Source: Saccharopolyspora gloriosae (GTDB taxonomy: Bacteria > Actinomycetota > Actinomycetes > Mycobacteriales > Pseudonocardiaceae). Taken from it: 64,000 bases of DNA. Positions 34,091 through 47,727 of this stretch are shown in pieces (the first letter of the stretch is position 1; each line of letters opens with the position of its first letter). The notes under the pieces are model-generated. The model was not told the origin of the DNA. It saw only the letters and a list, made by a program, of their open reading frames with translations, and did no database searches. The stretch is taken from positions 1,117,501 through 1,181,500 of the forward strand of contig NZ_JACHIV010000001.1 in assembly GCF_014203325.1 (NCBI RefSeq), given 5' to 3'. The translations under genes and the position numbers were made by a program.

Positions 34091-34162
34091 GGGCGCATAG
34101 CTCAGCGGAAGAGCACTTGCCTTACAAGCAAGGGGTCGCTGGTTCGAACCCAGCTGCGCCCA
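34091..34162 (+). tRNA. tRNA-Val (TAC)
   Basis: A 72-base cloverleaf: acceptor GGGCGCA pairs with TGCGCCC (34155-34161), discriminator A, D arm GCTC/GAGC, anticodon stem CTTGC/GCAAG, T arm GCTGG/CCAGC with TTCGAAC. Anticodon TAC is at 34123-34125. CCA is not encoded. Confidence 0.96.
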
Positions 34163-35033
34163 CTTTCGGTCGTCTGATCAGTGGTGATGCACCACCTTGT
34201 AAGAGATTGCCGGCCCAGGCTCGTACGCGAGATCGGCAGGTGCTGGCGTCGGCTGGTTCAGCGTGTCCGCCGCCCCCGGTCCTCCCCAGCCCTCCTGCCG
34301 CCGAGGGATTCCTGCCGTGCTTGGCTTGGTGCTGCGGCAAGCATTTACCGCATCTTTTTCGGCGGGTCGTCTCGATCTCGTGAGTCGCTCGGAGACGCGG
34401 CAGGTTTTTTGGGCTCTGGCATTAGCTCTGGTAGTCGCTGGTCGATCGCGGGATGGTGTTTATGCCCAGTCGGTATTATTCGATCAGCTTTCGGATTGCT
34501 CGTGCGTCGAAGCGGTCAGGAAAATGGTGTCGGTGGTGTCTCGCGGGGTCGGCTCGACCAGACCTCTTGCAGAGCCAGCCGCTCCGGGCCGACTGTTTCG
34601 GTCCTGTCCGGCCCGTCGGGCGCACCGGCGGCAACGGCGCGATCTGAACGACAACTCGCCAGAAACGATCCACGGCGCGGACGTCGACGGCGATCACCCT
34701 AGCTCCAGTCTGCCAACACGTTAGCGGCCCGTAGTGGCGATTTCTGTCAGCAAGTGCACGTTCGCCCTGATTTTGAATAGGGCGAGAAATCTTCTTGGCT
34801 GGGCGAAATCGAAGCGATGACGGCCGTTGGGGTATTTTGCGCAAGCGGCGAGCTCGCTTGGCGTCGGGGCGGTGAAGATCGTCGACGGAGGATGGTCGCC
34901 CGTAGATTTCGCATAGTGTCTGCCTATGTGGAGCATAGGCAAAAGGTACTTTGCGTCTGTTTTTGCGGGCATCTACTCTTCGCTATCGCAGCGCCGAATA
35001 CGTTTCGGTGGCTAGACGAGAGAAGCGGAAGTC
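34163..35033. other. Gene-poor, lower-GC stretch downstream of tRNA-Val
   Basis: About 870 bases without a convincing gene. Base composition is visibly less GC-rich than the flanks (for example around 34320-34500 and 34740-35030), and codon use in open frames is not actinomycete-like. Features seen: CGCCCT/AGGGCG hairpin near 34770-34792 and the operator-like palindrome at 34921. It could be decayed horizontally acquired DNA next to a tRNA; no integrase or tRNA 3' duplicate was found. Confidence 0.5.
34921..34941. promoter_or_regulatory. Perfect 8-5-8 palindrome upstream of the SDR gene
   Basis: TGCCTATG-TGGAG-CATAGGCA is an exact inverted repeat, 93 bases before the SDR start codon. This spacing and symmetry suit a dimeric repressor such as TetR, MarR or GntR types. 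No regulator gene is adjacent. Confidence 0.55.
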
Positions 35034-35801
35034 ATGACTCTTAACAACTCGAACAGGTTGCAAGGAAAGGTCGCACTTGTGACCGGTGCCGCCAAGGGGA
35101 TCGGGGCCGGCATCGCGAAGGAGTTCGCCGCTGCCGGGGCCTCGGTCGTGGTCAACTACGCCTCCGATGCCGAGGGGGCGCAGAAAGTGGTGAGCCACAT
35201 CCGCGACAGCGGGGGGACGGCGGTCGCGGTTCAGGGTGACGTTTCCGCTCGCGAGGATGTCGAACGCGTCTTCGGCGAAGTCGTGCACACCTACGGTCGG
35301 CTGGACGTCGTGGTCAACAACGCCGCGGTGTACTTCGCGGAGCCGGTCGAAGACGCGTCGCAGGAGCACATCTCGCACCAGCTATCGGTCAACGTGCTCG
35401 GGCCCATCCTCACGGTGCAGGAGGCGCTCAAGCATTTCGGGCCCGATGGCGGCTCGATCATCAATATCGGGTCGCTCGACAGCGCTCGCGCGGTTCCCGG
35501 GATGTCGGTCTACGCCGCGACCAAGGGGGCTGTCGACGCATTCACCAGGGTGCTGGCGGCCGAGCTGGGACCCCGTGGGGTCAGGGTCAACACCCTTGCC
35601 CCAGGAGGTGTGGAGACCGAGGGGATCCATGCCGCGGGCTTCATGGGAAGCGATGCCGAAAAAGAGATGATCGAGCGCACTCCGCTAGGGCGGATGGGGC
35701 AGCCGCAAGACCTGGCGAGGGTCGCGGTGTTCTTCGCCTCCGACGACGCGGCGTGGGTCACCGGTGAGCGCCTCACCGCGTCGGGCGGCCTTCGGAGCTA
35801 G
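35034..35801 (+). CDS. Short-chain dehydrogenase/reductase (classical SDR)
   Basis: A 255-residue classical SDR. TGAAKGIG (near residue 18) binds NAD(P), VNNAAVY matches the NNAG motif, Ser sits in INIGSLDS, and YAATKG supplies the catalytic Tyr-x-x-x-Lys. The C-terminal APGGVETEG and ASDDAAWVTGERLTASGG are typical of FabG-like and glucose-1-dehydrogenase-like members. NADPH preference is likely from the VNYASD segment after beta-2, without an acidic end. It starts the accessory stretch that includes the FAD oxidoreductase; whether they share a pathway is inference. The substrate is unknown. Confidence 0.93.
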   Translation: MTLNNSNRLQGKVALVTGAAKGIGAGIAKEFAAAGASVVVNYASDAEGAQKVVSHIRDSGGTAVAVQGDVSAREDVERVFGEVVHTYGRLDVVVNNAAVYFAEPVEDASQEHISHQLSVNVLGPILTVQEALKHFGPDGGSIINIGSLDSARAVPGMSVYAATKGAVDAFTRVLAAELGPRGVRVNTLAPGGVETEGIHAAGFMGSDAEKEMIERTPLGRMGQPQDLARVAVFFASDDAAWVTGERLTASGGLRS

Positions 35802-36533
35802 ATCCTCCCGGCTGTGAAGATCGACGATCGAAGCTTCCTTCGGCGGCGTTGACCTTGTTCTCACGGGTGACCACCGCGTCGCAGCCGTCGTCCGCTGGAC
35901 GTCCGGAGCGAGTGACGGTCGTCCGGTCGACGCGGGGAACTCGCGGCGGCGGGCGCGCGTGGCAGTGCACGGCTCGGTGGCTTCTTCGACACCTCGTGAG
36001 CAATGCTCGGCTTCGCTGCTGCTCGACCGTCGACGGCAGTTCGGGTTCTGCCTGTGTTTCCGTCGACAGCGGACACGGCTGACCGGTATTCGGAATCGTC
36101 GGCGTGTGTCCCGGAGATCGTGGGTCGAGAAAGGCGAACCCGATCGCCTCGGTGAGCAATGTAGTCGGTTTCGTGCCCGTGAATGATCCTCGTGAATATG
36201 GTGCAGGGGTCGTAGATATCGGTCACCGGCGGTGTTGTCGTTTGGTGCGAATCTGGAGCCTGTCCCGTCGCGGTGCGCTCAGGAGGGGGCCTCCGGCAGC
36301 GCCCGTCGACAGGGGGCTGTGGTGGCAGAACGCCGCGTCGAAGGAGGACGAACGTGACCCTTTTGGGCAAGGCGCTGGAACTCATGTGCAAGGTCGCCTC
36401 GCGGAGGTGCGCTACTCGATGGTACGTGCTTACAGTTCGGTAATGTGAGTTGTTTTCGTGAGATCCTCGTCGTTGCCGCCTCGGATGTCACTTTCCTGTC
36501 CTGATTCATTTGTCGGAGGTTAGTGCGATTCGT
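35802..36533. other. Intergenic stretch before the FAD oxidoreductase gene
   Basis: About 730 bases in which I find no gene with a plausible start and codon use. A GGAGG motif lies at 36515-36519 near the next start. The composition dips in GC around 36420-36510, consistent with a promoter. Confidence 0.5.
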
Positions 36534-38444
36534 ATGCGTGCGTTGATTCTTTGCGACGTGCCGGTGGAATACGGCCGTTCGCTGATCGGTGGGGATGTTC
36601 GGCACCGCCCCGAGCTGGCGCTGACGGGGGCGGAAACCGGGGACGTCGTGGCTGCGGCGGCTTTGGGCTCGGCGATCGCCGAGCTCCGGCCGCACGTGGT
36701 CGTCACCGCCGCGACGCTGCCGTCCGCCGTTCTCGCGCGGTGGCGCGCGGTGATGGGGACCGAAGCGGCGGTGTGCGTGCGCGTCGCGGACGCTGCGGAT
36801 GAGGTGAGCACCGCCGGAGCGGACGCGGCGGGAAGGATCGCGGTGCGCGTCGTCGACGCCGGAGCGGACGCCGCGTTCCGCGCGCTGGCCGTCGCCGAGC
36901 GGTACCTGCTGACCCGGCGCACCGCGGCCCCATCGGTCGAGGACAGCTGGTCGGGGTTGGCGGCAAGCGTTCCGTACCGGCGGCCGGGTGGCGGGGCCGA
37001 TGAGAGCGTCCTGCTGATCGGCGCCGGAGTGGTCAACCTGGTGACCGCGTCGCTCCTGGTCCGGCACGGGTACCGGGTCACGGTGCTGGAACGGTCGCCG
37101 GATCCGCGCAGGAACGCCGAGTGGTCGGCATACGGCTGCAGCCGTGGCGGCCACAACGCCCGCATGTTCACCCTGACCGAGGCCGACGACTACCACGACA
37201 AGGTTCCCGTCCCGCCGGATCAGGCGAACACGCTGTTCGATCGCCCGCCGTCCGAGCTGGGGTGGAACGTCCTCGTCGGCACCGGGCCCGCCGAGCAGGC
37301 GTGGATCCAGGAGTTCCGGCGAGTTCCGCCGTGGTTGGCGCGGGCCTACAACACCGACATCTTCGACCTCAACCGTCGCAGCGGGAAGTTGTGGGCCGAG
37401 TGGATGGCCGCCGATCCGGCGTCCTTCGACGACGTGCACCTGCGGCACGACGTCCTGCGGCTCTACCAGGACGCCGACCACTTCGCCGCCGGGGTCGGCA
37501 GGCAACGCGACGCGGGAGCGCTCCTGGACAGCTACGCCCCGGAGCGGGTACGAGCGGAGTTCCCCGCGCTGGCAGAGGCCGCGCCGGACGCCTACGCGGG
37601 CGGCGTGCTGGTGCGCGGGTTCACGCTGAACGTGCACGATTTCATCGCCCGGTTGCTCGACGAGTTGGAAGACGCCGGAGCGCGGCTGTCGTTCGACGAG
37701 GAGGCGGAGACCGCGCTGCGTGACCGGGCCGACCGGGTGGCCGGCGTGCTCACCGACCGCGGGAACTTCCACCGCGCCCACCACTACGTCGTCTCCCCGG
37801 GCGTGCACGGCGCGAACATGCTGGCCAACACCGAATCCGCCGGGCAGATCCACGGCGTCCTCGGCTGCTGGCTGGCCGTACCGAATCAGCGGCCGTTGCT
37901 GGAGCATTCGCTCAAAATCGCTCGTCGCGGGCACGTCGCCGAGGACGCCAACGTCACCGTCGCCCGCGACGAGCGCGGCGGTGAGGTGCTGGTGTTCGGC
38001 TCCGGTTACGGATACACCGGCGCGGACCCGGCCAACATCGACCGGGCCGAGCTGGCGGCGATGCACGCCGCGACCGCCGACACGGCACGACGGCTGTTCC
38101 CCCGCGCCTACGCCGCCGCCGGGATCACCCCTGGTGATCCGGACGCGCGGTTCTGCGTGCGCCCGTGGACCGCGTCGAACCTGGGCTTGTTCGAAACGCT
38201 GCCCGCCGCGAACGGGGCGTTCGTCGTCGCGGGCGGGCACAACACCGGCGGGTTCGCGCAGGCCCCGGTCGTCGCCGAGGCCGTGCTGGACGCCCTGGCC
38301 GGACGTCCGCACCCGATGCACGCGCTATACCACCCGCGACGAGCCCGCGACGTCCTCGGTGGCCCGCCGGCCGCGGCGCCCGTTCCGGCCGAGACCCTCC
38401 CGCCGAGGACGGTTCCGGCAGAGCAGGCGCACCAGGTCACCTGA
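36534..38444 (+). CDS. Two-part FAD-dependent oxidoreductase (DAO/DadA-like with extra N-terminal domain)
   Basis: A 636-residue protein. Residues ~155-610 are a DAO-family flavoenzyme: the Rossmann motif reads VLLIGAGVVNLVTASLLVRHGYRVTVLE, GCSRGGHNARMF follows, and the FAD-closing segment near the C-terminus is RPWTASNLGLFETLPAANGAFVVAGGHNTGGFAQAPVVAEAVLD. This is closest to D-amino acid dehydrogenase-like or sarcosine-oxidase-like enzymes that oxidise a C-N bond. The third glycine of GxGxxG is Asn168. Residues 1-150 (MRALILCDVPVEYGRSLIGGD..., ELRPHVVVTAATLPSAVLARW) form a separate alpha/beta domain I cannot name. ATG 36534 follows GGAGG, though 14 bases away; an in-frame TTG at 36510 is an alternative. 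Neighbouring exporter and amidotransferase genes suggest amino-acid-derived metabolism. Confidence 0.85.
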   Translation: MRALILCDVPVEYGRSLIGGDVRHRPELALTGAETGDVVAAAALGSAIAELRPHVVVTAATLPSAVLARWRAVMGTEAAVCVRVADAADEVSTAGADAAGRIAVRVVDAGADAAFRALAVAERYLLTRRTAAPSVEDSWSGLAASVPYRRPGGGADESVLLIGAGVVNLVTASLLVRHGYRVTVLERSPDPRRNAEWSAYGCSRGGHNARMFTLTEADDYHDKVPVPPDQANTLFDRPPSELGWNVLVGTGPAEQAWIQEFRRVPPWLARAYNTDIFDLNRRSGKLWAEWMAADPASFDDVHLRHDVLRLYQDADHFAAGVGRQRDAGALLDSYAPERVRAEFPALAEAAPDAYAGGVLVRGFTLNVHDFIARLLDELEDAGARLSFDEEAETALRDRADRVAGVLTDRGNFHRAHHYVVSPGVHGANMLANTESAGQIHGVLGCWLAVPNQRPLLEHSLKIARRGHVAEDANVTVARDERGGEVLVFGSGYGYTGADPANIDRAELAAMHAATADTARRLFPRAYAAAGITPGDPDARFCVRPWTASNLGLFETLPAANGAFVVAGGHNTGGFAQAPVVAEAVLDALAGRPHPMHALYHPRRARDVLGGPPAAAPVPAETLPPRTVPAEQAHQVT

Positions 38445-38681
38445 TGTTCCGCGGCGAGCAGGGATGACGAGCCTTCGGACACTCGATCACCCGCTCCTGC
38501 GCGAGCTGGGCTCTTGGTCGGCTGCGGCACGGCGTGCTGCGCAGCCGCAGCGGATCTCCGGCAGACAGCCGGTGTCGCTGCCGACGACTCCTCCCGAGCT
38601 GCACGGGCGCCGCGCCTACCGCGGAAGCCGGACCGAACCCGTTGATATGACAGGAAAATCCCCACTCCGGAGAAAGAGATC

Positions 38682-39668
38682 ATGACCTCGTTGCGCCAGT
38701 ACGCCGCTGTCCACACCGGACGGTCGACCGATACCGGGAAGCCGCGTGCGTTCTGGTGGGGCTGCGGGCTGGCGCTGCTGGCGGTGATGATCTGGGCCGG
38801 GAACTTCGTCGCCGCCCGAGGGTTGGGCGATGAGGTCTCCCCGGTGGCGCTGTCGTTCTGGCGCTGGACGATCGCCACCGCGGTGCTGGTTCCCTTCGTC
38901 GCCCGCGCACCGGTGGCCCAGTGGCGGCTGTGCCGCGCCCATGTCGGCTACCTGTGCCTGACCGGATTCCTCGGGGTCGCCGCGTTCAACACCCTGGTCT
39001 ACATCGCGGGCCGCACCACTTCTGCGACCAACCTGGCGCTGCTGGCGGTGGCCGCGCCGGTGTTCATCGTGCTGCTCGCGCGCGTGCTGGACCGCACGCC
39101 GATCACCGGTCCGCAGCTGGCCGGCACGGTCATCGCGTTGGGCGGGGTGGGAGCGCTGATCACCGGAGGGACGCTGATCGGCCTGCGGTGGCACTCCGGC
39201 GACCTGTGGATGCTGCTGGGCACGTTGACCTTCGCCTGCTACTCGCTACTGGTGCGCCGCAAGCCGCCTGAGCTGGGGAATTCGGTGTTCCTGGCGAGCA
39301 TCTTCGGCGTCGGCACGCTGTTCCTGCTGCCGCTGTACCTCGGGGACTTGCTGCTGCTGGGCGGCCGGATGCCCCTGGACGGCCGGGTGCTGTGGTCGCT
39401 GCTGTACGTCGGGGTGCTGTCCTCGGCGGTCGCCTTCGCGGCGTGGAACCGGTCGATCGAGATCATCGGCGCCTCGCGCGCAGGCTTCCTCTACTACCTC
39501 ACACCGGTCGCCACCGCGCTCGCGGCGTGGCTGGTGCTGGGAGAGCGAGCCGGGTGGGTGCAGGGCGCGGCGATGCTGCTGATCGTGTGCGGCGTCTTCG
39601 TCAGCAACCACGCCCCGACGACCGGCCGTACGACGAGCAGGGGCCCGGAGACGGGCCCCGGGAAGTAG
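38682..39668 (+). CDS. EamA-family (DMT) transporter
   Basis: A 328-residue membrane protein with ten predicted helices arranged as two five-helix EamA repeats: first from LLAVMIWAGNFVAARGLGDEVSPVALSFWRWTIATAVL, second from LWMLLGTLTFACYSLLVRRKPPE to AAMLLIVCGVFVSNHAP. The paired WxxxN/R and FxRW-like motifs are those of drug/metabolite transporters, usually exporters of amino acids or metabolites. The cytoplasmic C-terminal tail is short. ATG 38682 has GAGAAAGAG upstream. The amidotransferase gene starts 8 bases after its stop, so the two are cotranscribed. Likely export of the product of this small cluster (inference). Confidence 0.93.
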   Translation: MTSLRQYAAVHTGRSTDTGKPRAFWWGCGLALLAVMIWAGNFVAARGLGDEVSPVALSFWRWTIATAVLVPFVARAPVAQWRLCRAHVGYLCLTGFLGVAAFNTLVYIAGRTTSATNLALLAVAAPVFIVLLARVLDRTPITGPQLAGTVIALGGVGALITGGTLIGLRWHSGDLWMLLGTLTFACYSLLVRRKPPELGNSVFLASIFGVGTLFLLPLYLGDLLLLGGRMPLDGRVLWSLLYVGVLSSAVAFAAWNRSIEIIGASRAGFLYYLTPVATALAAWLVLGERAGWVQGAAMLLIVCGVFVSNHAPTTGRTTSRGPETGPGK

Positions 39669-39676
39669 GAGCGAAC

Positions 39677-40621
39677 GTGTGCGGACTGTTCGGAATCGCC
39701 GGGACCGGCCCTGGAGGGGGCGATGCGGGGGCGATCCCCGCGTTGACGTGGGCGCTGGGGTCTGCGTCCCGAGAACGCGGCGTCCACGGCTCCGGTGTGG
39801 CGTGCTTGTTCACCGCGATTGACGGCGGCCCCGGGCTCCGCGAGTGGGAACCGGCCACCGCGACCACCGTTGCCGACCTGCGCACGTCGCGGCTGCGGAT
39901 CGTGAAGACGCCGGGAGCGTTCGACACGATGCCCTCGGCCGGTAGCGCCGACGAGAACGACGGCCCGCCGGCGGACCTGGCCGCCGACTTGAACCGCGCG
40001 GCGATCGTGCTCGGCCACACCCGGTTCCGCACCCAGGGGGCGACCGCCGCGCTGGAGCACACCAGCCCGCTGCTGGTCGATTCCGTCGTCGGCACCCACA
40101 ACGGCGACGTCGACGTGGACACCCTGCCCGCCCCGCCGCCGCGCACGCGGCCGAAGTTCGACACCGAACTCCTGCTCGCCGCGCTGTCCGATGCGGGCGG
40201 CGATCGCGCGGCGATCTGCGACCTGCTCACCGGCATGGTCGGCCGTACCGCGCTCGTCTGGGCCGACCTTCGCGATCCGATGCACCTCCACCTCGCCCGC
40301 GCCGCGCTGAGCCCGCTGGCCGTGGCCCGTGACCAGTTCGGCCGGTTGCACTGGGCGTCCAATCCGGGGTGGTTGCGCACCCACCTGCCCGCGGTCGGAT
40401 TGCGCCCCACGGGGTTGCGGATGCTGCGGGAAGGGACGGTCGAGACCTACGACCTGCGCGGTGGCGTCCCGGAATCGGTCTGGCGGGCCGATTTCGTTCC
40501 CACCACCCGGGAAAGCGACCTGCGCAAACGCCACTCCGTCGCGTTGCTGGGCTACACCGACCGGGACCGCGCCGCCGACGACGCGTTGTTGCGGCGTCGC
40601 GTGCTGTCCTCGTCCGCGTGA
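39677..40621 (+). CDS. Stand-alone class II glutamine amidotransferase
   Basis: A 314-residue Ntn-type glutaminase domain protein. After removal of the initiator Met, the N-terminal nucleophile would be Cys2 of CGLFGIAG. GHTRFRTQGA and GTHNGDVD match the Arg, Asn-Gly and Asp positions that bind glutamine in GlmS- and GltB-type domains. There is no synthetase or isomerase domain, so the ammonia must be used by another protein or the enzyme hydrolyses a gamma-glutamyl compound (as EgtC does). GTG 39677 was chosen because it alone gives the N-terminal Cys and AGGAG lies 7 bases before it. It is 8 bases after the EamA gene. Confidence 0.88.
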   Translation: MCGLFGIAGTGPGGGDAGAIPALTWALGSASRERGVHGSGVACLFTAIDGGPGLREWEPATATTVADLRTSRLRIVKTPGAFDTMPSAGSADENDGPPADLAADLNRAAIVLGHTRFRTQGATAALEHTSPLLVDSVVGTHNGDVDVDTLPAPPPRTRPKFDTELLLAALSDAGGDRAAICDLLTGMVGRTALVWADLRDPMHLHLARAALSPLAVARDQFGRLHWASNPGWLRTHLPAVGLRPTGLRMLREGTVETYDLRGGVPESVWRADFVPTTRESDLRKRHSVALLGYTDRDRAADDALLRRRVLSSSA

Positions 40622-40806
40622 GCAGATCGCGACACCCTGATGTTGCACGCGCGTGGGGATTCCGCGCTCTGGCGCGGAGTGCTGTGCCGTCCGCTGAAAT
40701 GACCGACTGAAGACATGTCGCCCGTCGCGCGTCCCAGAGCGGGACGTCGCGTCGGCGCAACGTTGCGAAGACCATCGAATCTTCCCGGCCGGAAAGGCTG
40801 CTCGCC

Positions 40807-41430
40807 GTGAGTGATCAGACCGCATCGCTTCCCGAGAACCCGTGCTTGGTGACCGAGCGGCTCGTTCTGCGTCCGTGGGAGCCCGCCGACTTCGACGCGG
40901 TACGAGCATGGCACGCCGACCCCGTGGTCATGCGGCACCTCGGTGGAGTCCTCGATTCCGCCCGCAGCGACGCGACGGTGCGCCGCTGGACGGCGGAGCT
41001 GGAGTCGAAGGGATTCGGCATGCTCGCGGTCTGCCCGGCCGACGGTGCGCGGCCCATCGGCACCGTGGGGCTCGGCCTGCCTGCTTTCGACAGCCACTTC
41101 ACCCCGTGCGTCGAGATCGGCTGGCGCCTTGATCGGGGCGCCTGGGGGCGCGGCTACGCGACGGAGGCCGCGCGCGCGGTCCTGCGGGACGGGTTCGACC
41201 GGCTCGGGCTGGCGGAGATCGTCGCCTTCACCGCCAGGCAGAACACCGGGAGCGAACGGGTGATGAACCGCCTGGGCATGCGGTACGACCCCAGCGGGGA
41301 CTTCGTGCGCCGATTCCGCCCCGACGGGCCGGAAGTCCCGTCCGTGCTCTGGCGTGTCCGCGCCGGCGATCTGGGTGAGGACGGTGCACTGCAAGAAAAC
41401 GGCGACCCGCGAAAAGGGGGAGGCGTGTGA
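40807..41430 (+). CDS. GNAT-family N-acetyltransferase
   Basis: A 207-residue GNAT of the RimJ/RimL-like type. LVTERLVLRPWEPADFDAVRAWHADPVVMRHLGG is the usual first motif, EIGWRLDRGAWGRGYATEAARAVL binds acetyl-CoA pyrophosphate (RxxGxG), and the C-terminal TGSERVMNRLGMRYDP completes the fold. The last ~20 residues are polar and probably disordered. GTG 40807 follows GGAAAGG. It is 185 bases after the amidotransferase gene, probably in the same cluster. Such enzymes near a metabolite exporter often give self-resistance by acetylation, but that is inference. Confidence 0.92.
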   Translation: MSDQTASLPENPCLVTERLVLRPWEPADFDAVRAWHADPVVMRHLGGVLDSARSDATVRRWTAELESKGFGMLAVCPADGARPIGTVGLGLPAFDSHFTPCVEIGWRLDRGAWGRGYATEAARAVLRDGFDRLGLAEIVAFTARQNTGSERVMNRLGMRYDPSGDFVRRFRPDGPEVPSVLWRVRAGDLGEDGALQENGDPRKGGGV

Positions 41431-41975
41431 TCGGCTTCCACCTGCGGGGTGGCTCTCGTGAATCCGGGCAGCCCTGAATCGGGCAACGGCGTCGGGTGTC
41501 GACCATCGGACGTTGCGCAGCCGGGTGCGGGTGCTGATCACGCTGAGATCAGCCCTGTTGCTGTACTCCCCGCTGGTGAACTGAGGAGTCGCGGGAAGTG
41601 CCTGAGCGGGTGGCGGAGCTGGAGCCGCTGTTCCTGTTGACCAATGGTTCGCAGGTGTCGTGAAAGCCCGGTCACCGGACTTGCGGAGCGGCGACCGCTG
41701 TCGCGGCGCCACACTCCGAGCCAGGCGGAAACGTCCTGGCGCTGCCCTGCGGGCGGTCTCGTGCGGGATTCCCCCGAAGTGCGGGCGTGGAAAATGGAAA
41801 ATTTTTGTTTCCGGAATTATTAAACGATCTCAGCTCGCCGGTGTCGTGATATGGGAATGCGCGATCGGGCAGGGATAATTCTCGTACGTGATCGCTTCGA
41901 GGTGCTGGTGAGTTGAACTCTGTTTCGTCTGATTGACTCCGCTCGGCAACTGAAATTCGGCAGAGGGGAAAACTC
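41431..41975. other. Intergenic stretch with an AT-rich promoter zone
   Basis: About 545 bases with no gene I can support. Bases ~41800-41830 are strikingly AT-rich (gaaaatttttgtttcc..attattaaac), likely part of the promoter for the secreted protein gene that follows. Confidence 0.5.
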
Positions 41976-42326: not shown

Positions 42327-42640
42327 TCCTCGCCGGCCGAGGACCGGGCTGTGCCGTTGCCATGAACCACGTGGCAACGGCGCAGTCATGTCGCCGGAGA
42401 TTTTCGGCACACCGATGCGGGGAAATCGAGCCGTGCGGAAAGGCGCCCTTGCGCCAAGTGGCGCGATCCGGTTTCAAGTGGGGGGAATCCCCGTTCGCCG
42501 GGAACGCGGTCCGGACGGCAGCCCGAGTTGCGGACACTCGTGGTGGTCGCGCGTTGCCGCGGATTTTCCGCCGTGGAGGAGTGGTTCGAAGGCGCTGCGC
42601 AACCGAACTGCTCGCTTTCCAGTTTCGGAGGATGATCGGG
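42327..42640. other. Short intergenic stretch
   Basis: About 310 bases between the secreted-protein gene and the LuxR-type regulator; no gene or clear hairpin seen. A GGAGG (42627-42631) serves the next start. Confidence 0.5.
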
Positions 42641-43324
42641 ATGACTTCCCAAGCCGAATCAGCAGAATCGTCGCCGGCCCTGCACGAGGAGCACGAGTCA
42701 CCGAAGCGCGTGCGGGTGGCGGCCTGGGCGGCTGATCCCATCACGCTGAACGGTTTGACGCAGGCGTTGATGGGCCGTCTCGACGTGTTCGTCGCGACGG
42801 GCGAACTCCCCGCCGACGTGGACGTCCTGGTGGTCGCAGCCGACCGGGTCAGCATGGACGTCATGGTCAACATGCGCCGGGCCGCCGCTCAGTGCTCGGC
42901 ACCGATGGTGCTGGTGACCAACGAGCTCGACCGGACCCAGCTGCTGGCCGCGGTCGAATGCCGCGTGGTCGCGGTGCTGCACCGCAGCGCGGCCACCGAG
43001 GAACGGTTGGTCAGCACGATCGACGTCGTGGCCGGAGGTGGTGGTCTGCTGCCGCCGAACCTGCTCGGTGATCTGCTGCGCCAAGTGCAGAACCTGCACG
43101 AAGAGGTGCTGGCTCCGCGCGGTCTGAACTCCTCCGGGCTGACCAGTCGCGAGGTCGACGTCATCCGGTTGCTCACCGAAGGGTGTGACACCGAGGAGAT
43201 CGCGACCCGGATGTGCTATTCGGAACGCACCGTGAAGAACGTCATCTACGCCATGACGAGCCGCTTCAACCTGCGCAACCGTCCGCAGCTGGTCGCGTAC
43301 GCGATGCGTTCCGGAATCATCTAG
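42641..43324 (+). CDS. LuxR-type regulator with degenerate receiver domain
   Basis: A 227-residue NarL/FixJ-like protein. Residues ~20-140 have receiver-like order (VRVAAWAADPITLNGLTQALM, ADVDVLVVAADRVSMDVM), but the usual phospho-acceptor Asp position reads Ala and the conserved Lys region is HRSA, so phosphorylation control is unlikely. The C-terminus is a standard LuxR helix-turn-helix: LTSREVDVIRLLTEGCDTEEIATRMCYSERTVKNVIYAMTSRFNLRN. ATG 42641 is 9 bases after GGAGG; ATG 42632 is an in-frame alternative. It heads a group of regulators before the secretion genes. Confidence 0.9.
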   Translation: MTSQAESAESSPALHEEHESPKRVRVAAWAADPITLNGLTQALMGRLDVFVATGELPADVDVLVVAADRVSMDVMVNMRRAAAQCSAPMVLVTNELDRTQLLAAVECRVVAVLHRSAATEERLVSTIDVVAGGGGLLPPNLLGDLLRQVQNLHEEVLAPRGLNSSGLTSREVDVIRLLTEGCDTEEIATRMCYSERTVKNVIYAMTSRFNLRNRPQLVAYAMRSGII

Positions 43325-43447
43325 CACCGGCGCGAGGAGCGGATCGGCAGGCGGTGGCGCCGAAATCCCCTCGCAGCACGCCGAAACCGGTGCCGCGCGG
43401 GGATGATCGGTGCCCTTCGTCCGTCCTGGTCTCAGCCCGCGACGTCC

Positions 43448-46189
43448 TCACGCGGACGCCGGCGCGGCGCCGCGCAACATCGCCGTCGCCAGCTCGGCGC
43501 GCGACTGGTACCCGGCGCGCTGGAAGAACCGGGTCAGCCGCCCCTCCACGCTCTTCGCGCTGGTCCCGAGAACGACGCCGATCTGCTGGTTGGTCAATCC
43601 GTCCGTGATGAGGGTCGCGAGCAACCGTTCGTTCTCGGCGAGGGTGGCGCTCCGGCCCGCGACGGCGATGTTGCGCGCGCGCATCAGCAGCCGCAGCCGC
43701 GCCCGCGGAATCAGCGCGTCGAGCTCGCCGAACGTCCGGTACGCCTCCCGCAGCAGCCGCGGGTCCCCGAGCCCGCTCTCGGCCACGACCAGGGCGGTGC
43801 GGGCCAACTCGACCTTTCGGCGGCGGGAGCGGGAGAGCTCGACCGCTTCGCGCGCGGCAACCGGATCGCGCTCCACCAGCACTCGCGCGAGCAGGTGATT
43901 GCGCCGCGCGGCGGGGGTTCCCAGGCGTTCGGCGATCCGCTTGAGCCGCGCCGCGCACTTCCGGCCGGCCGCCGCGTTCCCGTGCCGCGACTCCCATACC
44001 GCCAGTCGCAGCCACAGTTCGTCGGTGCCGACGACGATCCCGTCCGCGCCCGCGCGAGCGAGCCCCTGCTCGATGAGCGTGCGCGAGAGGTCGTGGACGC
44101 CGAGCGTGCTTTCCAGGTCCGCGGCGGGCGCGGCCAGCAGGTGCGGCAGCAGCAGGTGCTGCGAGCGGGCTTCGTCGAGCACGGTGCGCGCGCTGTTCAG
44201 CTGGCCGCGGGCGGTCAGGATCGTCACCGCTTCCCGGTACATCGGTGTGCGCCCGGGAGCTCGGCCGTGGACCGTGGCCGCGGCCATCGTGGACCGGGCG
44301 GTGTCGAGCGCTTCGTCCCACTGCTCGTGCGCACCGGGGTCGCCGAGTTCTGCCGCGCCGCGCAGGTGGAGGGCGTTCGTCACCAACTGCTTCACCGGCC
44401 CGGCGGCGCTGCTCGCGTCGTCCTCGGTCTGCTCCTGGCCGGACGCCGCCCCCAGCATCGACGCCGCTACTCGACCGATGGCCTGGCCGAATGCCGCCGT
44501 GGCCCGGCTTTCCGATCGCCACTGCTCGGATTCGGCGGCGAGCTGCTCGTGCGCTTCCTGCCAGCGATCGAGCAGGCAGAGCGCGGCGGCCCGGGTCACG
44601 ATCCGGGACGCCGCACCGCCGGGGATCGATCGCCAGCCCTCCCGGACGAAGTCCTGCAACGCGGTCGCGTCACCGTGCTCGGCCAACCCGGCCACGTAGA
44701 CGAGTTGCAGTTGCTGTTCGGCGATGGGTGAGAGCGCGTGGGGGAGCGTGCGCAGCGCGAGGGCGGCCGATTCGAAGGCGGAGCCGAACCGCTGCTGCAC
44801 CGCGCACGACACGGCGTGCCGGTGCAGCGCCACGGCTCGGCGGGCGGGGTCGGTGGTCAACTTGGTCGCCGCCAGCAGCCATCGCACCTCGTGATCCTCG
44901 TGCGCATCCGAGGCGCTGCGCTCCAGCAACTGCGCGGCGGCGCGCTCGGGATCCACCAACCTGCCCGCGTCCACCAGCCGTTCGGGCAGGTAACCGGGGT
45001 CAGCGCAGGGCGCGCCGTTCCAGAGGGCGCGCACGGCGAGCAGCCCGATCCTGCGCCGTTCGAAGGGCCCCGCGCAGGAAGCGAGCACGGTGGCGAGCAT
45101 CGGTACGCGGAAGCGCCAGGAATTCGGCTGCGGGCCGCGCAGCAGCACGTCCGCTTCGGCCAGCGCGCGCAGGATTTCGCGGACTTCGTCCTCGCCGCGG
45201 TTGACGCAGTCCGCGATCAACGATGGCGCGGCCTCGCCCAGCGGGTGCAGCACTGCCAGCGATTTCAGCACGGCCCTGGCCGGTGATTTCGGTTCGCACA
45301 GGTCGGTGAACAGCGGATGGGTGTTGGACAGGTGAGGAGCCCGGTCCCGCACCAGGTGCACTCGGCGGTCGACCACCCGCAGGCAGTCGGAGGCCAGGTA
45401 TCCCTCGACGGCGGCCTCGATGACGGCGGGGAGTCCTCGGCAGGAGTTCCGCAGCGCGGCGGCCATGCCGGGCGCGGGCACCGCGTTGAGCAGCTCCGCG
45501 AGGACCTGCTCCACTTCGGCTTCGCCCAGCGGGCGGAGCCGTTCCTCGTGCACCAGCCCGTTGCCCGCCAGTCGGTCGAGGCCCGCCCGGTCGGCTGCGC
45601 CGCTGCGAGCGGCGCAGACCAGGGTGATGCGGGTGCCTGCCAGCGCGTTCAGGAAAGCGGTGATGGCGCCGGCGGATTCCGGGTTGATCCGGTGCGCGTC
45701 GTCGAGGAAGACCACGAGCCGGTCGGGCTGCCCGGCCAGGGCCGCCAGCAGCCGCCGGAACGAGGCCGTGGCGAAGTCGCCGCGAGCGGGCGGCGCGCCG
45801 AGCTCGTCGGCGAGCCGGGCGGCGAGGTGCGCCGCATCGCATTCCCTGCGCGGTATCGGAACGTTCACCGTGGTGGTGCGCTCGTCGGTGAGCCGCAGCC
45901 GCGCTTGCGCGAGAGCCGTGCTGCGGCCGATCCCGGCGGGGCCGGTGACCACGATGAGCGGGACGTCGGGGCGGTGCAGGCAGACGTCGACGATGCGATC
46001 GACTACTTCGCCGCGGACGACCGAACGGGCACTCGGCCCGCGTTCTCGAGCAGTGTTGCCCCGCTGGGGCGTGCGCTGGAGGGCCGCGTCGGGGAGTGTC
46101 AGGTGGTCCGGGGCTGCGGGCTGGTGCGTGGGTCGATGAGTGAACACGGTCCCAGTATTGCCAGCGGTCCCGAGACCTTCCGCATTCAC
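43448..46189 (-). CDS. Large ATP-binding LuxR-family (LAL-like) regulator
   Basis: A 913-residue LAL-type regulator. The N-terminal AAA/NACHT-like ATPase has the Walker A VTGPAGIGRST, with Arg89 where Lys is expected, and Walker B LVVFLDDAHRI. The centre is helical and TPR-like, rich in Ala and Arg. The C-terminal LuxR helix-turn-helix is AENERLLATLITDGLTNQQIGVVLGTSAKSVEGRLTRFF (about 845-885). LAL proteins often control large clusters and respond to nucleotide or other ligands. The Walker A change may weaken ATP hydrolysis. The GTG start shares a ~180-base upstream region with the next gene, transcribed the other way. Confidence 0.9.
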   Translation of the reverse strand: MNAEGLGTAGNTGTVFTHRPTHQPAAPDHLTLPDAALQRTPQRGNTARERGPSARSVVRGEVVDRIVDVCLHRPDVPLIVVTGPAGIGRSTALAQARLRLTDERTTTVNVPIPRRECDAAHLAARLADELGAPPARGDFATASFRRLLAALAGQPDRLVVFLDDAHRINPESAGAITAFLNALAGTRITLVCAARSGAADRAGLDRLAGNGLVHEERLRPLGEAEVEQVLAELLNAVPAPGMAAALRNSCRGLPAVIEAAVEGYLASDCLRVVDRRVHLVRDRAPHLSNTHPLFTDLCEPKSPARAVLKSLAVLHPLGEAAPSLIADCVNRGEDEVREILRALAEADVLLRGPQPNSWRFRVPMLATVLASCAGPFERRRIGLLAVRALWNGAPCADPGYLPERLVDAGRLVDPERAAAQLLERSASDAHEDHEVRWLLAATKLTTDPARRAVALHRHAVSCAVQQRFGSAFESAALALRTLPHALSPIAEQQLQLVYVAGLAEHGDATALQDFVREGWRSIPGGAASRIVTRAAALCLLDRWQEAHEQLAAESEQWRSESRATAAFGQAIGRVAASMLGAASGQEQTEDDASSAAGPVKQLVTNALHLRGAAELGDPGAHEQWDEALDTARSTMAAATVHGRAPGRTPMYREAVTILTARGQLNSARTVLDEARSQHLLLPHLLAAPAADLESTLGVHDLSRTLIEQGLARAGADGIVVGTDELWLRLAVWESRHGNAAAGRKCAARLKRIAERLGTPAARRNHLLARVLVERDPVAAREAVELSRSRRRKVELARTALVVAESGLGDPRLLREAYRTFGELDALIPRARLRLLMRARNIAVAGRSATLAENERLLATLITDGLTNQQIGVVLGTSAKSVEGRLTRFFQRAGYQSRAELATAMLRGAAPASA

Positions 46190-46371
46190 GTGATGACAAA
46201 ACTCTTAATCATTTCTTGCGCGAATGTGGGCCGGGTGGAACATATTACACCGTTCTGAAATATGTCATTCCGGATTCTTGATCTCCTGCTGTTCCGCTGA
46301 TCCCGGCGCTAGCGTGCGGTCGTCGAGCCAGGGCGTCGAAGGCGGCGCAGCGATGCAGGAGGACGACGATC
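46190..46371. promoter_or_regulatory. Shared divergent promoter region of two LuxR-ATPase genes
   Basis: The 182 bases between divergent starts are notably AT-rich at 46195-46290 (for example catgatgacaaaactcttaa). No clean palindrome was found. Both promoters must lie here, so the two regulators may cross-control each other. Confidence 0.6.
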
Positions 46372-47727
46372 ATGACGCGGGAGAAGACGGCCATCACGGG
46401 CCGGGACGAGGTCTTGGCGGAACTGTGGACCGCGCTGTCGTCCGGAACGAAGCACGGTCGGCTGCTGGTCGTGCGCGGTGCGCAGGGCATCGGCAGGACC
46501 CGGTTGCTGGAGGCCGCCGCTCGGCGCTGGCTGTCCAGGGGGCTGCGGGTGACCCAGGTGCGTGCGAGACGTGAGCGCTACGGGATCGGCGCCGTGGTCG
46601 ACGCGCTCCGGGAGGACTTCGACCGGTCCGGCGGGCCCGCCCTGATCGAATGCATCAGCGCGCTGGCACGGCTCCGCGAGGGCGAGCCGACGGATCAGGG
46701 CGCGCGGTTCGTCACCGTGGTGGACGAGTTCAACCGGGTGTTCGGGCAGGTCGGTGGCACCGGGCGGACCGCGGTGCTCGTCGACGACGTCCTGGAGATC
46801 GCGGACCCCGTCCCGCTGCTGCTCGCGGCCCGCCGTCCGGGTTGCCTGGTCGTCGCGTCCTTGCGCACCGGTGCCGAGCCCTCCCCGGTCGCTCGCGAAC
46901 TGCTGGAGCTGGCCGACGAGGTGCTGGATCTGGATCCGCTGCGCAACGCGGATATCGCGACGATCACGGGCGGCGACCTCGACGAGAGCGTGCACGAGGC
47001 GCTGCGCGCTGCGCTGGGTCCGCTCTACGGCAATCCGGGCGCCGTCTTGGCGACCGTGCGGGAACTGCGGGACCGCGGGCGGATCGTCGACCACCGCTTG
47101 ACCCCCGCGGACGCGGAGATCGAACTTCCCGCCGACCACGAGCTGGTGCTGCGCGTCCGCCGGCTCGGCGCGCTCCCCCCGCGACTGCTCGCCGCGGTGG
47201 CCGCTCTCGGAGCGCTCGACCTCGACGACGTGCCGCTGGTCGCCCACGCCCTGGGGGACGACTTGGCGGAGTGCGAGCGGGCGGTGGACGAACTCGTCGA
47301 GGAGGGGCTGCTCGTGGGGGAGGAGGAGCGGCAGCTGCGCTGCGGCTGCCCGGCCCTCGCGGCGGCCTTCGTGCGCCAGCAGCGGGACGTGGTGCGGTGC
47401 CTGGCCGTCCCGCGACCGTCGGGCGCGAAGGTGCCCGTGCGGTCGAGGGCGGCGGTGGGCTCCTCCGGTTCGCGGTCGCAACCGGCCGCGCGGGCGCAGT
47501 CGTGGTCCGCGGCCGACGGCCGGCTGCTCGGCCTGATCAGTTCGGGGCTCACCAATCGACAGATCGGTTCGAAGCTGGGGCTGAGCGAGAAGACGGTGGA
47601 GAACCAGTTGACCAGGTTGTTCGCCAAGACCGGGTGCCGGTCCCGCGTGGAGCTGGTGACGGTGGCGAACGCGCCGCGGCTCGCGGTCGGCGGGGCCGTC
47701 GGCACCCGGATCGCTCCGTCGGCCTGA
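46372..47727 (+). CDS. LuxR-family regulator with compact ATPase domain
   Basis: A 451-residue relative of LAL regulators with a shortened sensor region. Walker A reads RGAQGIGRTRLLEAA, again with Arg (residue 42) in place of Lys, and the Walker B-like strand is TAVLVDDVLEI. An Ala/Leu-rich helical middle leads to a linker with basic patches and a C-terminal LuxR domain, LLGLISSGLTNRQIGSKLGLSEKTVENQLTRLFAKTG. ATG 46372 follows GGAGGACGACG. It is divergently transcribed from the larger LAL-like gene. Its role in the nearby secretion locus is inferred from position only. Confidence 0.9.
   Translation: MTREKTAITGRDEVLAELWTALSSGTKHGRLLVVRGAQGIGRTRLLEAAARRWLSRGLRVTQVRARRERYGIGAVVDALREDFDRSGGPALIECISALARLREGEPTDQGARFVTVVDEFNRVFGQVGGTGRTAVLVDDVLEIADPVPLLLAARRPGCLVVASLRTGAEPSPVARELLELADEVLDLDPLRNADIATITGGDLDESVHEALRAALGPLYGNPGAVLATVRELRDRGRIVDHRLTPADAEIELPADHELVLRVRRLGALPPRLLAAVAALGALDLDDVPLVAHALGDDLAECERAVDELVEEGLLVGEEERQLRCGCPALAAAFVRQQRDVVRCLAVPRPSGAKVPVRSRAAVGSSGSRSQPAARAQSWSAADGRLLGLISSGLTNRQIGSKLGLSEKTVENQLTRLFAKTGCRSRVELVTVANAPRLAVGGAVGTRIAPSA

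Follow-up and report, generated by a model that had tools for sequence, protein, structure and literature searches.

A block of four genes in Saccharopolyspora gloriosae, a putative horizontally moved operon for the synthesis and export of an amino-acid- or amine-like metabolite

The detailed study of four adjoining genes in a 64,000-nucleotide stretch of the Saccharopolyspora gloriosae genome (the window, in whose coordinates all positions are given) leads us to lean towards reading them as a small operon, acquired by horizontal transfer, whose products make and export a metabolite resembling an amino acid or amine, on the evidence of sequences and structural models. All on the plus strand, they encode a two-part FAD-dependent amine oxidase (36534..38444, 636 aa; DAO, PF01266, 2e-28), an EamA-family metabolite exporter (38682..39668, 328 aa; PF00892, 9.5e-42), a stand-alone class II glutamine amidotransferase of the Ntn hydrolase type (39677..40621, 314 aa; PF13522 (GATase_6), 7e-11) and a GNAT acetyltransferase (40807..41430, 207 aa; Acetyltransf_3, 6e-35). 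The open reading frames and Pfam matches bear out an earlier, sequence-only reading, which had described these genes on one strand with two of them 8 bp apart; the two are the EamA and amidotransferase genes. What that reading overlooked is that the 237 bp between the oxidase and EamA genes (38445..38681, plus strand) contain the remains of a formyltransferase gene.

The block as a whole (36299..41448, plus strand) is delimited by its DNA identity to Saccharopolyspora sp. NFXS83, to which it aligns in three collinear pieces at 89-91%, with flanks that differ or are ~80% identical. The grouping is more than chance: NFXS83 keeps all four genes in one order with the window, and neither species has a broken reading frame among them. 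Their dN/dS is 0.27-0.46, below 1 for every gene; these values, together with the intact block in the sister species, indicate that selection acts on the four proteins taken together. The block was found in two of six sampled Saccharopolyspora (the window's host and NFXS83), and the remaining four congeners lack it. It sits in a variable region, at whose edge lies a tRNA-Val (TAC) gene (34091..34163, plus strand; ARAGORN). NFXS83 carries a 32-bp 3' tRNA remnant at a distance of 1 kb upstream from the block, and in another congener (G120) a second copy adjoins the tRNA. From these sequence comparisons, the four-gene block looks like a small operon that has moved horizontally.

The earlier description of the flavoenzyme as two-part agrees with both its Pfam match and its predicted structure. 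The DAO match covers residues 159-585 only, and in the AlphaFold2 model (pLDDT 84.5) residues 1-130 (36534..36923, plus strand) form a separate alpha/beta domain of alternating strands and helices. Queries with six family members gave this N-terminal domain no Pfam match, even with the E threshold relaxed to 1, and it has no significant sequence relative in the PDB. The FAD-binding motif GxGxx(G/N) is present as GAGVVN at residues 163-168 in a 30-member family alignment, and this motif and the DAO fold both place the protein among the DAO-superfamily FAD amine oxidases of the glycine/sarcosine oxidase type. By structure the model is similar to CmiS2 (Z 32.8) and glycine oxidase (Z ~32), and by profile its closest sequence relative in the PDB is NikD. 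The DAO fold of residues 155-610 is common to NikD (nikkomycin), CmiS2 (cremimycin), ThiO and monomeric sarcosine oxidase (Z 28-33), all of them biosynthetic or N-substituted-glycine oxidases. However, identity to these enzymes is only 14-23%, their operon context differs and they lack the extra N-terminal domain of ~130 residues. Furthermore, the oxidase family alignment shows no variation at Cys541, which belongs to the motif C-[VI]-R-P and is a candidate site for covalent FAD, by analogy with the C-terminal cysteine of sarcosine oxidase and NikD.

The amidotransferase gene starts with GTG and its protein begins Met-Cys. Aligned with GlmS, it keeps Cys2, Arg116, Asn142-Gly143 and the DTE motif, and thus has all four hallmarks of a class II amidotransferase (N-terminal Cys, TRF/TRW Arg, Asn-Gly oxyanion hole and DTE Asp). 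Its model resembles PurF and GlmS (Z ~22), whose glutaminase domains have the same fold and the same catalytic Cys, Arg, Asn-Gly and Asp, but their synthase or phosphoribosyltransferase domain is absent here: as had been noted from the sequence, the glutaminase domain stands without a synthetase part, the 314-aa protein ending directly after it. EgtC, the gamma-glutamyl hydrolase of ergothioneine synthesis, is likewise a stand-alone class II Ntn amidohydrolase with an N-terminal Cys (Z 19), although identity is 17% and the lengths differ (227 aa in EgtC). None of the block's four proteins matches the egt-type families (egtA, egtB, egtD, egtE neighbours). In a class-wide profile search, strong matches occurred in only five sampled genomes, one of them the window's own; the others were mostly weak and partial (<63 bits, long frames), as is typical of general class II enzymes. 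Elsewhere, relatives of the amidotransferase have no such oxidase beside them and mostly stand with gamma-glutamylcyclotransferase (GGCT) and/or amidoligase genes, or alone. The closest ones outside Saccharopolyspora and Frankia (~37-40% identity) belong to such loci on actinobacterial plasmids, which have no oxidase or EamA gene, whereas the window block has no amidoligase or GGCT gene. This frequent partnership with GGCT or amidoligases, instead of the oxidase, counts against an operon of these four genes, as does the presence of the block in so few congeners.

We surveyed the neighbourhoods of the oxidase family in 56 loci and placed 59 loci on a tree. An oxidase, a formyltransferase and an EamA of one subfamily occur together in Frankia, three cyanobacteria and two gammaproteobacteria, and the oxidase and formyltransferase also in a Methylococcaceae; in several of the relatives' loci the formyltransferase gene was found by tblastn. 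The window has a related oxidase and an EamA of the same subfamily, in the same direction, but differs in the presence of the amidotransferase and GNAT genes and in having only a scar of the formyltransferase gene. The scar is identified by aligning the DNA with the Frankia gene, which is intact, and with the frameshifted fragments in NFXS83, where the scar is longer than in the window. By these sequence relationships, the ancestral operon included the formyltransferase, whose gene in the window is dead. Elsewhere in the host genome there are only weak, general formyltransferase relatives. With the gene reduced to a scar in Saccharopolyspora, the present product, if any, would not be formylated by that enzyme.

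The window EamA is 79% identical to that of Frankia and 42-46% to those that adjoin this oxidase in cyanobacteria and gammaproteobacteria; the subfamily is 42-49% identical across groups, versus ~26% to EamAs linked to the oxidase in other loci. Of the 59 tree loci, 18 have a same-strand EamA gene no more than 6 kb from the oxidase, with nine changes of state on the tree, and the host genome holds ~10 EamA genes in 6.8 Mb, a density at which chance proximity is expected in ~1%. Among 296 genomes sampled from the phylum, close relatives of the window EamA were found in only one other, and one EamA relative, from another actinobacterial genome, lacks a neighbouring oxidase. A neighbourhood survey had been proposed for the four-gene set: the oxidase and this EamA subfamily do recur together, but the exact set is confined to the two Saccharopolyspora. 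The GNAT is 44% identical to one directly upstream of the oxidase in an Arthrobacter, the only other lineage in which a close relative of it adjoins the oxidase, which counts against the four-gene operon; it shows no detectable relation (no tblastn match) to the GNAT beside the rhizobial oxidase. A formyltransferase and a GNAT never occur in one locus among those scanned, a weak observation as the GNAT profiles were built from those same loci.

In general, the oxidase family lies near exporters, amino-acid enzymes, NRPSs or acyltransferases. One long ORF of Variovorax had suggested an oxidase-NRPS fusion, but this was discarded because the oxidase match lies in a different frame from the NRPS. 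Gamma-glutamyl-capable enzymes adjoin the oxidase in four unrelated forms: the class II amidotransferase in Frankia and Saccharopolyspora; a class I GATase with its Cys, His and Glu in cyanobacteria; GGCT in five rhizobial loci; and a eukaryote-type glutathione synthase in gammaproteobacteria and Methylococcaceae. Some relatives' oxidases adjoin a GNAT instead.

In the operon that we favour, the flavoenzyme, with the fold of glycine oxidase, sarcosine oxidase, NikD and CmiS2, would oxidise a C-N bond of an amino acid or N-substituted glycine. By hydrolysing a gamma-glutamyl amide, the amidotransferase would then either take a gamma-glutamyl group off an intermediate, like EgtC, or free ammonia from glutamine. 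The GNAT may N-acetylate the amine, as tailoring or self-protection, and EamA would export the product, a direction assumed from its family. In the ancestral operon, the compound would have been formylated by the folate-dependent formyltransferase. The substrates, order of steps, product and direction of export are those that we infer, as is either role of the glutaminase. The earlier suggestion that an amino-acid-like compound is made, protected and exported is supported for the oxidase-exporter core, which recurs in Saccharopolyspora, Frankia, cyanobacteria and gammaproteobacteria, while the linkage of glutaminase and GNAT is lineage-specific.

Loss of the formyltransferase in both Saccharopolyspora, together with the truncations in the Frankia operon, raises the possibility that the operon is decaying. 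A transferred island that makes nothing any more, one of its key steps being gone, is, in our view, unlikely. The different lengths of the scar in the two species would fit it, as would a dN/dS that is not strongly constrained, the restriction of the block to two of six congeners and the state of the Frankia locus (ordered oxidase-formyltransferase-EamA-amidotransferase), which adjoins a transposase-like ORF and in which oxidase and amidotransferase are both truncated. Against it, the four remaining frames are intact in both Saccharopolyspora, each with dN/dS below 1, and the active-site residues of the glutaminase are kept.

Two further explanations seem less probable still, to a similar degree. 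The glutaminase and GNAT could be unrelated passengers, the functional unit being the oxidase and exporter only and the amidotransferase coming from a plasmid amidoligase/GGCT system; on plasmids of Streptomyces and Nonomuraea, and in one further actinobacterium, its relatives do adjoin GGCT and/or amidoligases. Nevertheless, the amidotransferase gene lies downstream of EamA in Frankia too and only 8 bp from it in the window, and the non-homologous stand-alone amidotransferase of cyanobacteria adjoins EamA in the same operon. Alternatively, the block could be a catabolic or detoxifying module similar to the Puu (putrescine) pathway, which pairs a DAO oxidase with a gamma-glutamyl hydrolase of the class I GATase type. 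Here the DAO enzyme would oxidise a gamma-glutamylated amine before gamma-glutamyl hydrolysis, EamA moving the amine or product. The proximity of the oxidase to gamma-glutamyl-type hydrolases of several unrelated classes is consistent with this, but neither a gamma-glutamyl ligase nor an aldehyde dehydrogenase is among the four genes, and the formyltransferase, NRPS and acetyltransferase neighbours indicate synthesis over breakdown.

Searches of open-licence papers found no described cluster with these families, in line with the earlier reading, which knew of no described pathway with this exact set, and no description of the oxidase-formyltransferase-EamA operon either; nor did they give a match for pathways that combine an FAD amine oxidase with a gamma-glutamyl protecting group, or for stand-alone class II amidotransferases outside ergothioneine. 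A broader and more doubtful idea, which we offer tentatively, is that these loci form an undescribed family of amino-acid-metabolite operons. Each would combine an oxidase whose N-terminal domain lacks Pfam and PDB sequence matches with a dedicated exporter, the gamma-glutamyl step being performed by four unrelated enzyme types and N-acylation by a formyltransferase or a GNAT, and the Saccharopolyspora branch would have switched from formyl to acetyl. The comparison of loci predicts amine oxidation, gamma-glutamyl handling, an N-formyl or N-acetyl product and export. If our reading is right, the two-part oxidase would be a marker gene for dozens of small uncharacterised biosynthetic loci across Actinobacteria, cyanobacteria, rhizobia, gammaproteobacteria, Variovorax and Paenibacillus. 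Because many of the marker loci have neither an NRPS nor a PKS, they could escape searches that rely on such enzymes.

In a complete Saccharopolyspora chromosome of 6.83 Mb, four genes on the + strand lie where the sequence-only reading had placed them, with Pfam support for each family: a FAD oxidoreductase (DAO; 36534-38444), an EamA exporter (38682-39668), a class II amidotransferase whose GTG start gives Met-Cys-Gly (39677-40621, 8 bp after the EamA gene) and a GNAT protein (40807-41430). They most likely represent a compact, horizontally moved operon that would make and export a small amino-acid-type compound, and that has most likely lost its formyltransferase in Saccharopolyspora. The synthesis, protection and export of such a compound proposed earlier are supported for the oxidase-exporter core, which is well supported by recurrence; the product and the parts given to the amidotransferase and GNAT are putative. 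The earlier remark that no described pathway with this exact gene set was known agrees with our literature search, which covered open-licence papers and found none.

An oxidase profile run against 84,980 genomes gave 56 loci. Scattering of the homologues among unrelated neighbours had been named as one observation that would refute a functional set, and oxidase and exporter are not scattered: in the oxidase tree, 18 of 59 oxidases have a same-strand EamA gene within 6 kb (nine changes of state), against about 1% of loci expected by chance with the roughly ten EamA genes of the host genome, and 25 of 59 have an EamA, LysE or MFS gene. The oxidase-adjacent EamA proteins of Frankia, Saccharopolyspora, cyanobacteria and gammaproteobacteria share 42-49% identity between groups, as against about 26% with those of NRPS-linked oxidase loci, and at E 1e-60 just one further genome among 296 of the phylum has an EamA of this kind.

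In Frankia CiP1_Cm_nod1, the closest locus outside the genus has, in order, an oxidase at 81% that is cut short at its 5' end next to a transposase-like ORF, a formyltransferase (PF00551), an EamA at 79%, and an amidotransferase of which just the first 88 residues are present (65%). Three cyanobacteria, two gammaproteobacteria and one Methylococcaceae also have the same formyltransferase next to their oxidase (40-45% identity), with the N-x-H and LDxG motifs kept. In the sister species NFXS83, frameshifted formyltransferase fragments (tblastn 1.6e-7) occupy the oxidase-EamA gap; the corresponding gap in the window, 38445-38681, is a shorter scar that aligns to parts of them. Because of these remains between oxidase and EamA, we regard the four genes as the remainder of a longer operon.

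The oxidase had been called two-part, and so it is: the DAO match spans residues 159-585, and in the AlphaFold2 model residues 1-130 fold as an alpha/beta domain of their own. This domain gave no Pfam match in six family members tried at E 1 and no significant sequence relative in the PDB. Structures similar to the model are CmiS2 (Z 32.8), glycine oxidase (~32), sarcosine oxidase (~29) and others of that fold, and NikD is the best PDB sequence relative. Cys541, invariant and part of a C-[VI]-R-P motif, is predicted as a candidate covalent FAD site, by analogy with sarcosine oxidase.

The neighbours of the oxidase are mostly concerned with amino-acid chemistry, and a similar place beside it is filled by four unrelated enzyme types able to make or break gamma-glutamyl bonds. 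Cyanobacterial loci have oxidase, formyltransferase, a class I amidotransferase and EamA; the amidotransferase shows GICFGHQ and GHPE motifs and lacks a synthetase. Gammaproteobacterial loci have a eukaryote-type glutathione synthase (473 bits, above its cut-off), oxidase, formyltransferase and EamA; this synthase lies inside the oxidase-formyltransferase operon in Methylococcaceae as well (three loci in all, one at L041:428-1822). Rhizobia and Agrobacterium vitis carry gamma-glutamylcyclotransferase, aminotransferase, LysE and oxidase, with GNAT at three of five loci; this set is compact and uncharacterised, and seems more complete than the one in the window. One of the five is on a mobilizable Ochrobactrum plasmid. 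Streptomyces loci have GNAT, oxidase and a PLP decarboxylase; at seven loci of this type, including S. viridochromogenes DSM 40736 and a record named Streptosporangium, the three genes are consecutive and the PLP enzyme is diaminobutyrate-decarboxylase-like. Variovorax, Azospirillum and others have an NRPS (A-PCP-C) and EamA, often with a second flavoprotein or glutathione transferase, and genes for ornithine/arginine-type decarboxylase, alanine racemase, SHMT-like enzymes and aspartate aminotransferase occur at others. Quite unlike these are four loci in Paenibacillus, Cellulomonas and Vibrio, where the partners of the oxidase family are glycosyltransferases, a second flavoprotein and a polysaccharide deacetylase.

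The amidotransferase keeps Cys2, Arg116, Asn142-Gly143 and the DTE aspartate. Its model is nearest to the glutaminase domains of PurF/GlmS (Z ~22), followed by EgtC (Z 19). Because the protein lacks a synthase domain, it is more likely an amidohydrolase, whose substrate would be a gamma-glutamyl compound or glutamine, than half of a known synthase. Relatives of it have gamma-glutamylcyclotransferase and/or amidoligases as neighbours on Streptomyces and Nonomuraea plasmids, as well as in another actinobacterium. At three such plasmid loci the stand-alone amidotransferase adjoins the cyclotransferase, and the Streptomyces plasmids also bear several amidoligase genes.

The block (36299-41448) is carried by two of six Saccharopolyspora genomes compared. 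It matches NFXS83 in three collinear pieces at 89-91% DNA identity, with the same genes in the same order; outside it, the right flank keeps about 80% identity, and on the left only short pieces are related. Pairwise dN/dS values (oxidase 0.34, EamA 0.45, amidotransferase 0.46, GNAT 0.27) indicate selection, though not strong. Genus-conserved DNA runs as far as a tRNA-Val (TAC; 34091-34163), beyond which congeners differ. In NFXS83 a 32-bp remnant of the tRNA 3' end, with three mismatches (L017:6398), precedes the block by about 1 kb, and in the congener G120 a second 3' copy adjoins the tRNA. The border and remnants are what insertion at a tRNA usually leaves behind, though no integrase turned up in the vicinity of the block, and the NFXS83 and G120 copies suggest a site of repeated insertion. 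The variable region from the tRNA to the block (34091-36298) has a GC of 0.636, against 0.704. After the block, 42527-47727 holds genes for LuxR-type regulators, of which one has a STAND/AAA ATPase domain, as well as an opposite-strand gene for a large ATPase protein; part of this stretch is conserved in NFXS83.
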